Shown: positions 12,335 to 28,800 of the stretch, piece after piece
Layout of the letters: each line of letters opens with the position of its first letter
Numbering within the stretch: position 1 is the stretch's first letter
Assembly: GCA_009784725.1 (NCBI GenBank)
Contig: WQXS01000013.1
Location: forward strand, 1-55,642
From: Oscillospiraceae bacterium
Lineage (GTDB): Bacteria > Bacillota > Clostridia > Oscillospirales > Oscillospiraceae
Direction of reading: 5' to 3'
Length of the DNA: 55,642 nt
Position numbers and translations under genes: made by a program
The notes under the pieces: generated by a model
The model's database searches: none
What the model saw: the letters and a program-made list of their open reading frames with translations, nothing else
Told to the model about the DNA's origin: nothing

Positions 12335-12376
12335 GAACACAGGGGGACGGTTCTCGAACACAGGGGGACGGTTCTC
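12335..12376. repeat. Two tandem half-copies of the GGGGGACGGTTCTC repeat
   Basis: Two identical 21-base units (12335-12355 and 12356-12376) carry the core CAGGGGGACGGTTCTC and lie between convergent genes. The core equals one arm of the palindrome at 12817-12891. Confidence 0.85.
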
Positions 12377-12386
12377 TTGTGCTCAT

Positions 12387-12816: not shown

Positions 12817-12891
12817 AAGACAGGGTAAGACAGGGGGACGGTTCTCTTGTCTTGCAGACAGGAGAACCGTCCCCCTGTCTTACCCTGTCTT
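12817..12891. repeat. Long palindrome with GGGGGACGGTTCTC arms between xdh and cdd
   Basis: Left arm 12817-12846 and right arm 12862-12891 are perfect 30-base inverted copies. The inside can pair further (TGTCT with AGACA around a 3-base loop), giving a 36-bp stem with one T-G step. It ends on the first base of the xdh stop codon and begins just before the cdd ribosome site, so it may act as a terminator, attenuator or RNA-stability hairpin. Confidence 0.9.
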
Positions 12892-15536
12892 TATTTCATC
12901 GGTAACCGTTGTCTGAGTATACCGTCTTTTCTGTATAATGCTCCCGCAACTGCAGGCGCGGTAGGAATTGTCGCAAGCTCCCCAACCCCTTTCGCCCCGT
13001 AAGCCGGTGCGGCACAGGGGGACAGGTCCCTTGTTTCAGTGGTGTTGAAACAAGGGACCTGTCCCCCTGCTTCGCTTCTCTCGATAATTATTGTTTCAAT
13101 TTCGGGAGCTTCTGTTGCTCTTATGAGTCCTAGAGTTCCGTACTTTGCTTTCGGATAGCCGTTTTCGAGTGGAAAGTCTTCTGTTAAGGCATAGCCGATG
13201 CCCATCAGGATTCCGCCTTCAATCTGACCCTCTGCAGATTTTGGATTTACAAGTGTTCCAAGGTCGTATGCGGCAGTTATTTTTTTAACTTTTCCGGCTT
13301 CATCAAGCTCGGCAACCTGCGCGGCATAACCATATGCAACATGGCTGACCGGGTTTGGTTTATCGCTGCCCATCGGGTCGGTTTGCGGATTATATTCCCC
13401 GTAAAATTCCCTGCCTTCGAGCTTGGTGAAGCAGGGGGACAGGTCCCTTGTTTCAATACTAATGAAACAAGGGACCTGTCCCCCTGCTTCACCAAGCTCT
13501 TTTTTTAGGAGTTTTGCGGCGACTATTGCTGCTTCGCCGGAGAAGACTGTTTGGCGGGAGGCGGTTGTTGTGCCGGAGTTTGGGGTGCGGTGTGTGTCGG
13601 GCGGTTCGATGACTATATATTCGGGTGGTATTTCGAGTGTTGTGCAAATCATCTGTGCCAGAACTGTTGCCATCCCCTGCCCTATGCATGCGGCACTTGA
13701 CCTGACATGGATTTTTCCGTTTTCGACCGATAATATACATCTCCCGGTATCAGGTACGCCTACTCCGAGACCCGAGTTCTTAAAACCGCATGCTATTCCT
13801 GTCAGCGGTGATGCATCGAATGCATCCTTTACGGCAAGCAGACATTCTTCTAAAGCGGTTGAATCATCGGCAATCTGACCGTTAGGCAGCTCCTGCCCGG
13901 GGCGTATAACGTTGCGGTTTCTAATTTCCCACTGTGATATCCCGGCCATTTCGGCAAGTAGATTTAAGTTGCTTTCCATAGCAAACGATGACTGGGGAAC
14001 TCCAAATCCGCGAAACGCTCCTGCGGGGGGATTGTTTGTGTAGACTGCAGTTCCTTTAATGTCAATATTTTGGAAATTATACGGTCCGCCCGCATGAGTG
14101 CAGGCACGCTGTAGAACAGGCCCGCCGAGACTTGCATATGCTCCCGTATCCGAAATGATATCGGCTTTTACAGCCGTGATTATTCCGTTTTCATCACAGG
14201 CTGTTGTAAAATCAATCTCCATTGCATGGCGTTTCGGATGGACTAAAATACTTTCCTGACGTGAAAGCTTGATTTTCACAGGTCTTTTAACAAGCCATGC
14301 AGCAAGTGCCGCATGATGCTGTACACTCATATCTTCTTTTCCGCCGAAGCCGCCGCCGACCAGCATTGAGCGTACTCTTATCTTCCCGGGTTCAATTCCC
14401 AAAAGACCGCTTATTTCTCTTTGCTCGTCATATACACTTTGCCCCCCGGTATAAAGCATCAACCCGTCATCTCCGTCAGGCATTGCTATTGCACATTCGG
14501 GTTCCATAAAAGCATGTTCGGTAAACGGAAGCGAATAATGGCGGGTAACAACATGCTTTGCTTCTTTTATCGCTTTGTCCGCATCCCCGCGCTTGAGCTT
14601 TTGTGAACTGAGAATATTTCCGTTTTCATGTATCAGCGGCGCATCCTCTGCAAGTGACATTTCGGGTGATGTCAAAGGCGATAACTCCTCATAAACGACC
14701 TCTATTAGAGATAATACCTCGTCGAGTGTTTCCTGCGTGTTTGTCACCGCAATTGCAACAGCGTCACCGACATACCGGGTTATAGCGCCGGCTGCAATAA
14801 GTGCATCCCAGTCTTTTATCAGATGACCGCATTTTATAACTCCCGGAACATCGGCGGCTGTAATTATTTTAATGCAATCACTGTGCGCCTCTGCTTCTTT
14901 AATATCTATTTCAAGAACCCGTGCTCTTGGATATTTTGTTCTGAGGGCTTTTGCATAAACAAGACCCGGGACGGTTTTATCGTCTGTGTACAAGCCTGTT
15001 CCGAGAGTTTTTTCATCGGCGTCAAGGCGGTAAAAATCCTCTCCCAAAACACCTTTGAAGCTGACCTCGGGTATAGGTTTGTTTTCCGTAAAAAACTCCG
15101 CTGCTATAAGAATTGCGTCTTCAATTTTTACATATCCCGTGCATCTGCAAATATTCCCGCGAATGGCTTTCTTAACGTCTGCTCGTGTCGGTTTACCGTT
15201 TACGTCAAGCAAGGCTTTTGCACTTATCACCATTCCCGGAATGCAAAAACCGCACTGTACAGCTCCTGCCGCTTTAAAGCAGAATGAATATACCTCTTTC
15301 TCACGAGGCATCAAACCGTCAACGGTTATTACGTTTTTGCCCTCAAGCTTTGAGACAGGCAAAAGACAAGCCCGCATTGCCTTGCCGTCAATAAGCACCA
15401 TACATGTCCCGCATGCACCCTCACTGCATCCTTCTTTAACAGAGGTCAGCCGCAGGTCCTCACGCAGGAATGTTATGAGTTTTTTGCCGGGATTTTCGCA
15501 TTCAATTTTTTGCTCATTTACAAAAAAAGAAACCAA
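12891..15536 (-). CDS. Fused xanthine dehydrogenase / molybdenum hydroxylase, selenium-dependent type
   Basis: The 881-residue product joins a small 2Fe-2S part (CSEGACGTCMVL..C and CGFCIPGM..CRCTGY, residues about 1-150) to a molybdopterin catalytic part (GGGFGGKEDM, GAFRGFGVPQSSFAMES, GQGMATVLAQM, and GAKGVGE with the catalytic Glu). No FAD subunit is attached. This is the layout of the selenium-dependent xanthine dehydrogenase family, whose members carry a labile selenium at the Mo centre rather than selenocysteine. Start is TTG 15536 behind GGAGG. Two palindromic elements inside the gene add residues about 680-706 and 823-841 in frame; both lie outside the motifs above. MocA-like, carbamate kinase and yge genes lie upstream in the same operon. 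Confidence 0.88.
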   Translation of the reverse strand: MVSFFVNEQKIECENPGKKLITFLREDLRLTSVKEGCSEGACGTCMVLIDGKAMRACLLPVSKLEGKNVITVDGLMPREKEVYSFCFKAAGAVQCGFCIPGMVISAKALLDVNGKPTRADVKKAIRGNICRCTGYVKIEDAILIAAEFFTENKPIPEVSFKGVLGEDFYRLDADEKTLGTGLYTDDKTVPGLVYAKALRTKYPRARVLEIDIKEAEAHSDCIKIITAADVPGVIKCGHLIKDWDALIAAGAITRYVGDAVAIAVTNTQETLDEVLSLIEVVYEELSPLTSPEMSLAEDAPLIHENGNILSSQKLKRGDADKAIKEAKHVVTRHYSLPFTEHAFMEPECAIAMPDGDDGLMLYTGGQSVYDEQREISGLLGIEPGKIRVRSMLVGGGFGGKEDMSVQHHAALAAWLVKRPVKIKLSRQESILVHPKRHAMEIDFTTACDENGIITAVKADIISDTGAYASLGGPVLQRACTHAGGPYNFQNIDIKGTAVYTNNPPAGAFRGFGVPQSSFAMESNLNLLAEMAGISQWEIRNRNVIRPGQELPNGQIADDSTALEECLLAVKDAFDASPLTGIACGFKNSGLGVGVPDTGRCILSVENGKIHVRSSAACIGQGMATVLAQMICTTLEIPPEYIVIEPPDTHRTPNSGTTTASRQTVFSGEAAIVAAKLLKKELGEAGGQVPCFISIETRDLSPCFTKLEGREFYGEYNPQTDPMGSDKPNPVSHVAYGYAAQVAELDEAGKVKKITAAYDLGTLVNPKSAEGQIEGGILMGIGYALTEDFPLENGYPKAKYGTLGLIRATEAPEIETIIIERSEAGGQVPCFNTTETRDLSPCAAPAYGAKGVGELATIPTAPAVAGALYRKDGILRQRLPMK
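13015..13069. repeat. Palindromic element A inside the xanthine dehydrogenase gene
   Basis: Perfect 24-base arms (13015-13038 and 13046-13069) flank a 7-base loop. The arm core is CAGGGGGACAGGTCCCTTG. It is read in frame as GGQVPCFNTTETRDLSPC just before the conserved AYGAKGVGE. Confidence 0.95.
13419..13499. repeat. Palindromic element B inside the xanthine dehydrogenase gene
   Basis: Perfect 37-base arms (13419-13455 and 13463-13499) flank a 7-base loop. The inner 24 bases of each arm are identical to element A; the outer 13 (GAGCTTGGTGAAG) are not in A. It is read in frame as GGQVPCFISIETRDLSPC. Confidence 0.95.
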
Positions 15537-27378: not shown

Positions 27379-27443
27379 AAGACAGGGGAAGACAGGGGGA
27401 CGGTTCTCGTGTCTCCAAGACAGGGGGACGGTTCTCGTGTCTT
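27379..27443. repeat. Direct copies of the GGGGGACGGTTCTC repeat between xdh and ssnA
   Basis: A partial copy (27379-27388) is followed by two 26-27 base direct copies (27389-27414 and 27417-27443) with the core GACAGGGGGACGGTTCTC. Unlike 12817-12891 the copies are in the same direction. They lie inside the rightward operon. Confidence 0.9.
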
Positions 27444-27465
27444 GATGAAAGGGATGGTCATATTA

Positions 27466-28800
27466 ATGATAATAATTGGAAATGGCAGGCTTATTACAAG
27501 AGGTTCGCCGAATGAGCTAATTGAAAATGGAGCAGTTGCTGTTCAGGAGCGGTTAATTAAAGAGGTCGGAGATACTTCGGAACTTCGGGCAAAATATCCC
27601 GATGCAGAATTTATTGATGCCTGCGGCGGAGTTATAATGCCCGGCTTGATTAATGCTCATAATCATATCTACAGCGCATTTGCAAGAGGTATTTCCATAA
27701 AAGGATATGCTCCGAAGAATTTTCCCGAAATTCTTGACGGAATGTGGTGGACAATTGACCGTAATTTATTAATCGAAGATACAAAATGGAGCGCAATGGC
27801 GACCTATCTTGACTGCATCCGGAGCGGCTGCACAACAGTTCTTGATCATCATGCCAGCTACGGCGGTATAAGAGGCAGTTTATTTGCCATCGCCGAAGCC
27901 GCAAAGGAGCTTGGTGTACGGACGGGGCTTTGTTATGAGGTCTCTGACCGTGACGGTGAGGAAAAAACGCGTGAGGCTGTTGCAGAAAATGCCGATTTTA
28001 TCAAGTTTGCCAAAGCCGATGATACCGACATGGTCAAGGGTATGATGGGGATGCATGCATCATTTACGCTTTGCGACAGTACAATAGCTCTTTGCCGTGA
28101 AAACACACCGGAGGGTATCGGTTTTCATATTCATGTTGCCGAGGGTATGGAGGATGTTAATGATTCCCTGCTTAAATACGGCAAACCTGTCATAAACCGT
28201 TTATATGACCTTGGAATCCTTGGCAGACATACAATAACAGGGCATTGTATCCATGTTAATGATATTGAAATGGAAATTATCAGGCAGACCGAAACAATGG
28301 TGGTTCATAACCCCGAATCCAATATGGGAAACGCCGTCGGCATACCTCCCTGCATGGAAATGATAAAACGCGGGATTTTACTCGGGCTCGGCACAGACGG
28401 TTATACAAACGATATGTTCGAATCCGAAAAGGTTGCAAATATAATACACAAGCATGTTCTTTCCGACCCCGGCGCTGCGTGGAGCGAGGTTCCGCAAATG
28501 CTGTTTGAAAATAACTCAAAAATCTGCGCCCGTTTATTTAATACTAAAGTAGGCGTTCTTGAACCCGGCGCTGCTGCAGATATAGTAGTAAGCGACTATG
28601 TACCGCTGACACCTATGAATGCCGATAATTGCGACGGACATATTCTGTTCGGCATGAGCGGCCGCAGCATAATAACCACAATGATAAACGGCGTTGTAAA
28701 AATGAAAGACCGCAAGCTGCAAGGCATCGACGCTGATATGATTTTATCAAAATGCAGAGAACATGCCGGTGCAATGTGGCAAAGGATAAATTCAAGATAA
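27466..28800 (+). CDS. ssnA: Putative aminohydrolase SsnA
   Basis: The product (445 residues from ATG 27466) is an amidohydrolase of the SsnA family: GGVIMPGLINAHNHIYSAFARG (metal His pair), TTVLDHHASYGGIRGSL, GFHIHVAEGMEDV, GHCIHVN, and LGLGTDGYTNDMFE with the metal Asp. The frame is open upstream to 27409, but that part is the repeat element, so the start is set at 27466 where family alignment and GAAAGGG (12 bases away) agree; ATG 27454 is possible. SsnA is found with YgfK and selenium-dependent Mo hydroxylases and is thought to act on a purine-derived ring. Confidence 0.9.
   Translation: MIIIGNGRLITRGSPNELIENGAVAVQERLIKEVGDTSELRAKYPDAEFIDACGGVIMPGLINAHNHIYSAFARGISIKGYAPKNFPEILDGMWWTIDRNLLIEDTKWSAMATYLDCIRSGCTTVLDHHASYGGIRGSLFAIAEAAKELGVRTGLCYEVSDRDGEEKTREAVAENADFIKFAKADDTDMVKGMMGMHASFTLCDSTIALCRENTPEGIGFHIHVAEGMEDVNDSLLKYGKPVINRLYDLGILGRHTITGHCIHVNDIEMEIIRQTETMVVHNPESNMGNAVGIPPCMEMIKRGILLGLGTDGYTNDMFESEKVANIIHKHVLSDPGAAWSEVPQMLFENNSKICARLFNTKVGVLEPGAAADIVVSDYVPLTPMNADNCDGHILFGMSGRSIITTMINGVVKMKDRKLQGIDADMILSKCREHAGAMWQRINSR

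Follow-up and report, generated by a model that had tools for sequence, protein, structure and literature searches.

Palindromic in-frame insertions in a xanthine dehydrogenase gene of an Oscillospiraceae bacterium and the REPIN-like repeat population to which they appear to belong

Introduction

Passages of Di Nocera 2013 (PMC3733652) describe REPs that lie within genes, sometimes twice in a single gene, and two Xanthomonas species whose recB genes contain REPs at nearly the same position. The same passages describe TIRYT genes with GGGGWSAS repeats, and TIR dimers and clusters in some species. TIRtrons/TIRYTs probably correspond to TnpA-Y1 subclass 2.1 of Quentin 2018 (PMC6006769), near whose genes the relevant section of that paper reports no REP-like sequences. 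Background on TnpAREP is found in parts of PMC8266576. The section of a MITE review that deals with RPEs (PMC10969869) presents these as palindromes of ~150 bp that lie in frame in many unrelated genes. In the pertinent part of a population model of REPINs (PMC8049555), a copy inserted into a gene is taken as destroying that gene.

Here, two palindromes within one xanthine dehydrogenase (XDH) gene are compared with these systems. Papers containing any of six arm strings of the repeat did not deal with bacterial repeats, as judged by title and the start of the abstract, and no paper was found that combines REPIN, RAYT and Firmicutes.

Results

The window, meaning the whole stretch of DNA analyzed (55,642 nt), belongs to a 2.77-Mb genome (G000) of 99 contigs that is 98.4% complete. 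A second genome, G009, is from the same genus. The window contains the following features.

12891..15536, minus strand: XDH gene, Se-dependent xanthine dehydrogenase type, length 881 aa, TTG start codon, stop codon at 12891-12893
13015..13069, no strand assigned: element A, inverted arm pair of the GGTCCC subfamily, translated as AGGQVPCFNTTETRDLSPC at about residues 823-841
13419..13499, no strand assigned: element B, core arms as in A at 13432-13486 plus an extended outer stem, translated as AGGQVPCFISIETRDLSPC at about residues 684-702
12817..12891, no strand assigned: element C, inverted pair of the GGTTCT subfamily, between XDH and the downstream deaminase-like gene
12340..12380, plus strand: tandem arm pair of the GGTTCT subfamily, intergenic
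27393..27434, plus strand: tandem arm pair at the start of ORF 27409-28800

The sequence-only reading had described A and B as palindromes with 24-base arms and a 7-base loop, 350 bases apart, and that description is accurate. Element A consists of perfect 24-nt arms around a 7-nt loop (24+7+24 nt), and B, which starts 350 nt past the end of A, has arms of 37-40 nt around the 24-nt core common to both. The very stable mRNA hairpins then proposed are borne out by predicted RNA folding, which gave -48.8 kcal/mol (z -11.6) for A and -78.9 kcal/mol (z -16.8) for B; none of 200 shuffles was as stable as A, and none of 200 as stable as B. The outer stem of B (window 13419-13499) extends into the flanking coding sequence (GAGCTT/AAGCTC), as does that of the element at the first of the two XDH sites in G009.

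The minus-strand ORF is uninterrupted through both elements and scores 1353 bits against the Se_dep_XDH model TIGR03311 (cut-off 830). As originally claimed, the frame is kept, the peptides are insertions, the Mo-site motifs are intact with GAKGVGE following A, and each peptide contributes two Cys by translation. As for the surface loops then suggested, flexible loops are probable, with predicted pLDDT below 50 at residues 692-696 and 821-842, and four other short segments are equally low. The A/B subfamily is rare in its own genome, where only one other exact 20-nt arm is among the arm matches listed; therefore A and B are probably related to each other by copying.

Element C and the tandem pair at 12340..12380 were missed by the earlier reading. 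The hairpin of element C starts on the XDH stop codon. The XDH C-terminus beside it is shorter than in several orthologues.

The XDH comparison set comprised 92 loci, with some rows the same sequence twice, and yielded 85 distinct translations. Element-like peptides occur in four of the 85 (G000, G009, G004 and G010) and are lacking in the other 81. The four carrier genomes all contain the repeat; homologues with the same peptide in genomes free of the repeat family, which would have spoken against insertion, were not found. The four carriers share the same two sites, site 1 ahead of LEGREF and site 2 ahead of AYGAKGVGE, occupied by differing subfamilies. In XDH of G009, site 1 is occupied by an inverted pair of the GGTTCATC type and site 2 by a shorter hairpin of the GGTAC type; the frame of the left arm is unlike that in G000 at both. 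In XDH of G010, site 1 has a single arm of the GGTTCCTC type, which is frequent in that genome, and site 2 has a partial arm. XDH of G004 also has a partial arm at site 2. The G010 and G004 genes, partial arms included, are open. At site 1, the G004 gene (L034) carries an unrelated repeat of the TCCTTCG..GCTCAGGATGAC type, for which 9 of the 19 genus genomes have matches.

No element was present at either site in XDH of G005, G006, G007, G008, G012 or G013, among which site 1 varies in length. Of these, G012 is an arm-bearing genome. Matches to the arm motif with one mismatch in five further XDH loci lie at unrelated places and were taken as chance. The G012 protein (L041) has a 24-residue insert elsewhere (SETQGEPQ..), and a 35-residue insert occupies one alignment position common to five spirochaete orthologues (L089, L099, L109, L111 and L131).

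XDH trees took in 22 and 18 of the 92 rows. With the insertion columns removed, G004 and G010 were joined (100/100) and G000 was not joined with G009; many deep branches were poorly resolved. Constraining all four carriers to one clade gave p-AU 0.0137, a value valid for a group named beforehand, the carrier group having been named after the first tree was known; p-AU for G000 with G009 was 0.004. A one-clade origin is thus disfavored, and insertion at the two sites probably recurred.

The arm is not restricted to XDH. The A/B arm pattern, allowing up to 3 mismatches, matched 37 times in the 2.77 Mb of G000, and the pattern CAGGGGGACRGKTM gave 90 exact matches; reversed controls gave 0 in both cases. 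The sequence-only reading had proposed a genome search for the arm and for the frame of copies in genes. That search grouped the 90 arms into 60 clusters. Under a rule calling for no fewer than 40 aa to either side of the element and 220 in total, 21 of the clusters are read in frame, within 20 ORFs; being based on ORFs, the search detects in-frame cases only, and frame-breaking copies are invisible to it. In this respect the sequence-only reading was incomplete: XDH is one of 20 such ORFs. A looser rule gave 21 ORFs with 24 element places in G000, and all 20 non-XDH ORFs have a Pfam match. Carriers include RecG, PheT, P-type ATPase, phosphoglucomutase, MiaB-like, TGT, QueA, ApbE and amidase by Pfam. 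For TGT, QueA and hydantoinase, the three tried, the element peptide coincides for the most part with gaps in the homologue of solved structure.

G009 has 276 exact arm matches (reversed control 1). A sample of 102 of these arms, from 40 stretches taken in listed order plus the XDH locus, formed 71 clusters, of which 21 are in frame inside 16 ORFs. Pfam matches at E 1e-8 were found for 13 of the 15 non-XDH carriers, e.g. RecG, PheT, TsaD, PolC, MurT and a BREX ATPase; the last is a BREX BrxC/D-like gene with the arm in frame (L249, 3512-4906). Three of the 15 (RecG, PheT and amidase) have an orthologue among the G000 carriers, where 0.19 would be expected by length, a rough figure that assumes 87% coding sequence and uniform insertion. 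In PheT and amidase the element-like peptides of the two genomes align at one common site; the RecG sites differ. The clusters not classed as intragenic number 39 of 60 in G000 and 50 of 71 in the G009 sample. By exact arms, the G000 clusters are 35 single, 8 tandem, 14 inverted pairs and 3 mixed, and those of the G009 sample 47 single, 11 tandem, 11 inverted pairs and 2 mixed.

A slightly different arm pattern was found in 10 of 119 genomes near that of the window, all from its genus; across the phylum, 41 of 398 genomes had it, the window's own included in both counts. Single arm matches in the phylum prove little because the reversed control also matches ~19 of the 398, and genomes with only one or two matches may owe them to chance.

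A preference for one reading frame (QGDGS..EPSPC) was considered and is at most weak. Left-most arms were in phase 0 in 22 of 42 elements, where 19.2 are expected with open frames taken into account (p 0.16). By orientation, forward arms gave 19 of 31 (15.2 expected, p 0.045) and reverse arms 3 of 11 (4.0 expected, p 0.87). The apparent preference is not significant after correction and comes largely from which frames are open. Broken genes around elements were also sought. None of five same-strand ORF pairs scanned has the look of a single gene split in two; in four pairs the ORFs match families that are unrelated, and in the fifth, one ORF is without a match.

Many arms resemble REP hairpins, the loop, GGGGAC(A/G)G(G/T)T(C/A), being conserved and the stem variable. 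A stem of at least 6 bp is present in 42 of 117 arms in G000 and 70 of 128 in G009, compared with ~1% of random positions, and in 18 of 41 arms at transposase loci, where there are 17 distinct inner stems; the other 23 of those 41 have shorter stems. DNA folding of four arms (one off the repeat) gave z between -1.9 and 0.5, with none standing out strongly, and lends no support to the hairpin reading. A GTAG/GTGG guide 5' of the hairpin was not above background (3 of 90 G000 arms and 8 of 102 G009 arms, the rates at random positions being 3.6% and 4.5%). Most arms read GGGGACGG, unlike the published GGGGWSAS motif, which is present in 24 of 90 G000 arms and 6 of 102 G009 arms.

A search with a G009 protein as query found 32 transposase loci. 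The query is a Y1_Tnp member; its score with the NCBIfam RAYT model, 75 bits, is below the cut-off of 80. TIRtron/TIRYT proteins have a C-terminal HTH/DnaA-like domain, and the ~115-130 residues of the query beyond the Y1 domain gave no Pfam match at E up to 1. Arms lie near the transposase gene (up to 300 nt before or 400 nt after it) at 18 of the 32 loci, and on both sides in inverted orientation at 10, including those of G009 and G002; no arm is nearby at 14. If the small elements are transposase-less versions of these loci, the same polarity is expected, and all 25 simple inverted pairs of G000 and G009 have the polarity of the transposase-flanking arms. The RAYT gene was found in 32 of 40 arm-bearing genomes, including every one of the 13 in which four arms or more occur, not counting G000, versus 22 of 40 arm-free genomes chosen mostly from the same families. 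Pfam and a search with the G009 protein failed to find it in G000 itself, and it was not found in arm-bearing G004, G010 or G012; among 19 genomes, only G009 and G002 were positive.

Discussion

The results make it likely that A and B each arose by insertion of the same non-autonomous mobile repeat, composed of an inverted arm pair of the kind flanking RAYT/TIRYT-like (HuH-Y1) genes in relatives. The repeat is probably mobile. The elements are best read as non-autonomous, REPIN/TIR-dimer-like units that landed in tolerant loops and survived by keeping the frame. The transposase may recognize the arms as single-stranded hairpins and copy or move the pair, as proposed for REPINs. Such an enzyme would act in trans, and in the genome of the window it may now be lost or unassembled. 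Selection would remove most in-gene insertions, including frame-breaking copies, leaving those of fitting length, lacking a stop and situated in a tolerant surface loop.

An alternative is that the XDH insertions go back to an ancestor of the genus and that gene conversion has since replaced their sequence where they stand, the shared sites reflecting descent. Occupation of the same two loops in G000, G009 and G004/G010 would be explained, as would the match of the site 1 copies in G009 and G010 to subfamilies frequent in their own genomes, and the sisters G004 and G010 may share one event. However, losses would be needed in G005, G006, G007, G008, G013 and arm-bearing G012, and a single clade of carriers is disfavored, though for a group named after the first tree. 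The difference in left-arm frame between G000 and G009 at both sites also argues against conversion, as do the unrelated repeat at site 1 of G004 and the membership of the G000 copies in a subfamily rare there, with only one other exact arm. Conversion is therefore considered unlikely.

It is conceivable, but decidedly unlikely, that TIRYT/subclass 2.1 enzymes, if the G009-type proteins belong to that class, drive a REPIN-like population in this phylum that repeatedly strikes the same loops through a real targeting preference, e.g. for exposed single-stranded or hairpin-forming sites, and not by selection alone. If true, the population would serve as a natural source of inserted loops for core enzymes.

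The very stable predicted hairpins, the repeated use of the same loops, and the presence of elements in RecG, PheT and amidase of G000 as well as in their G009 orthologues could indicate that the elements are kept for a useful hairpin or peptide in XDH, for example in mRNA control or as a binding loop. However, similar sequences also lie in unrelated genes and between genes, the peptides are unlike between species, the loops are predicted at low confidence, and 81 of the 85 distinct XDH translations do without an element-like peptide. Such a function is very unlikely. An assembly artefact is more improbable still. The analysis drew on the assembly, and repeats in a fragmented genome of 99 contigs are a known risk, but many copies preserve frame through conserved genes, and G009 is a second genome with the same pattern in other subfamilies.

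Bypassing elements occur in some mitochondria. That the hairpin-rich inserts are likewise skipped by the ribosome or removed from RNA is scarcely credible, as an intact frame free of stops, which the ORF-based search itself selects, is needless for skipping, and the five ORF pairs around other elements do not resemble gene halves.

Insertion of a mobile repeat thus remains the preferred reading. Intragenic REPs, the RPEs of Rickettsia and GGGGWSAS TIRs are already known; new are the high in-gene share, the link to RAYT/TIRYT-like transposases and the recurrence at the same sites. Approximately one-third of the examined clusters are in frame in ORFs, essential-type genes included, indicating that entry into genes is tolerable at scale, in contrast to the REPIN model described above (PMC8049555), in which such a copy is gene-destroying. 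The results tie RPE-like, protein-coding palindromes to a kind of transposase, and provide a candidate, testable hairpin partner for TIRYT-like transposases. They suggest that selfish DNA is able to add short loops to working enzymes repeatedly, and XDH genes with different inserts in the same loop are natural replicates for tests of insertion tolerance.

The population resembles TIRtrons/TIRYTs in its Y1 transposase with HIH and YxxxNP motifs and in its inverted repeats on both sides, here in relatives only. The published GGGGWSAS also fits the GGGGACAG arms, A and B among them. Unlike TIRtrons/TIRYTs, many arms form hairpins in which the stem varies and the loop is conserved, and there are up to 276 exact arms per genome (G009). 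Many of the arms are REP-like, whereas the consulted section of PMC6006769 reports none for subclass 2.1, in which the placement of G009-type proteins is putative. The elements share with REPs, REPINs and BIMEs short hairpins that are single, tandem or inverted, many copies, different subfamilies in different species and a RAYT partner; they differ from GTAG REPs in having no GTAG/GTGG tag above background and in that the conserved part is the loop. The sequence-only reading had likened them to RPEs of Rickettsia. They are indeed RPE-like, as described in the consulted section of PMC10969869, in being palindromes in frame across many unrelated genes, but they occur in another lineage in units shorter than ~150 bp, and are better read as REPIN/TIR dimers tied to RAYT/TIRYT-like transposases.
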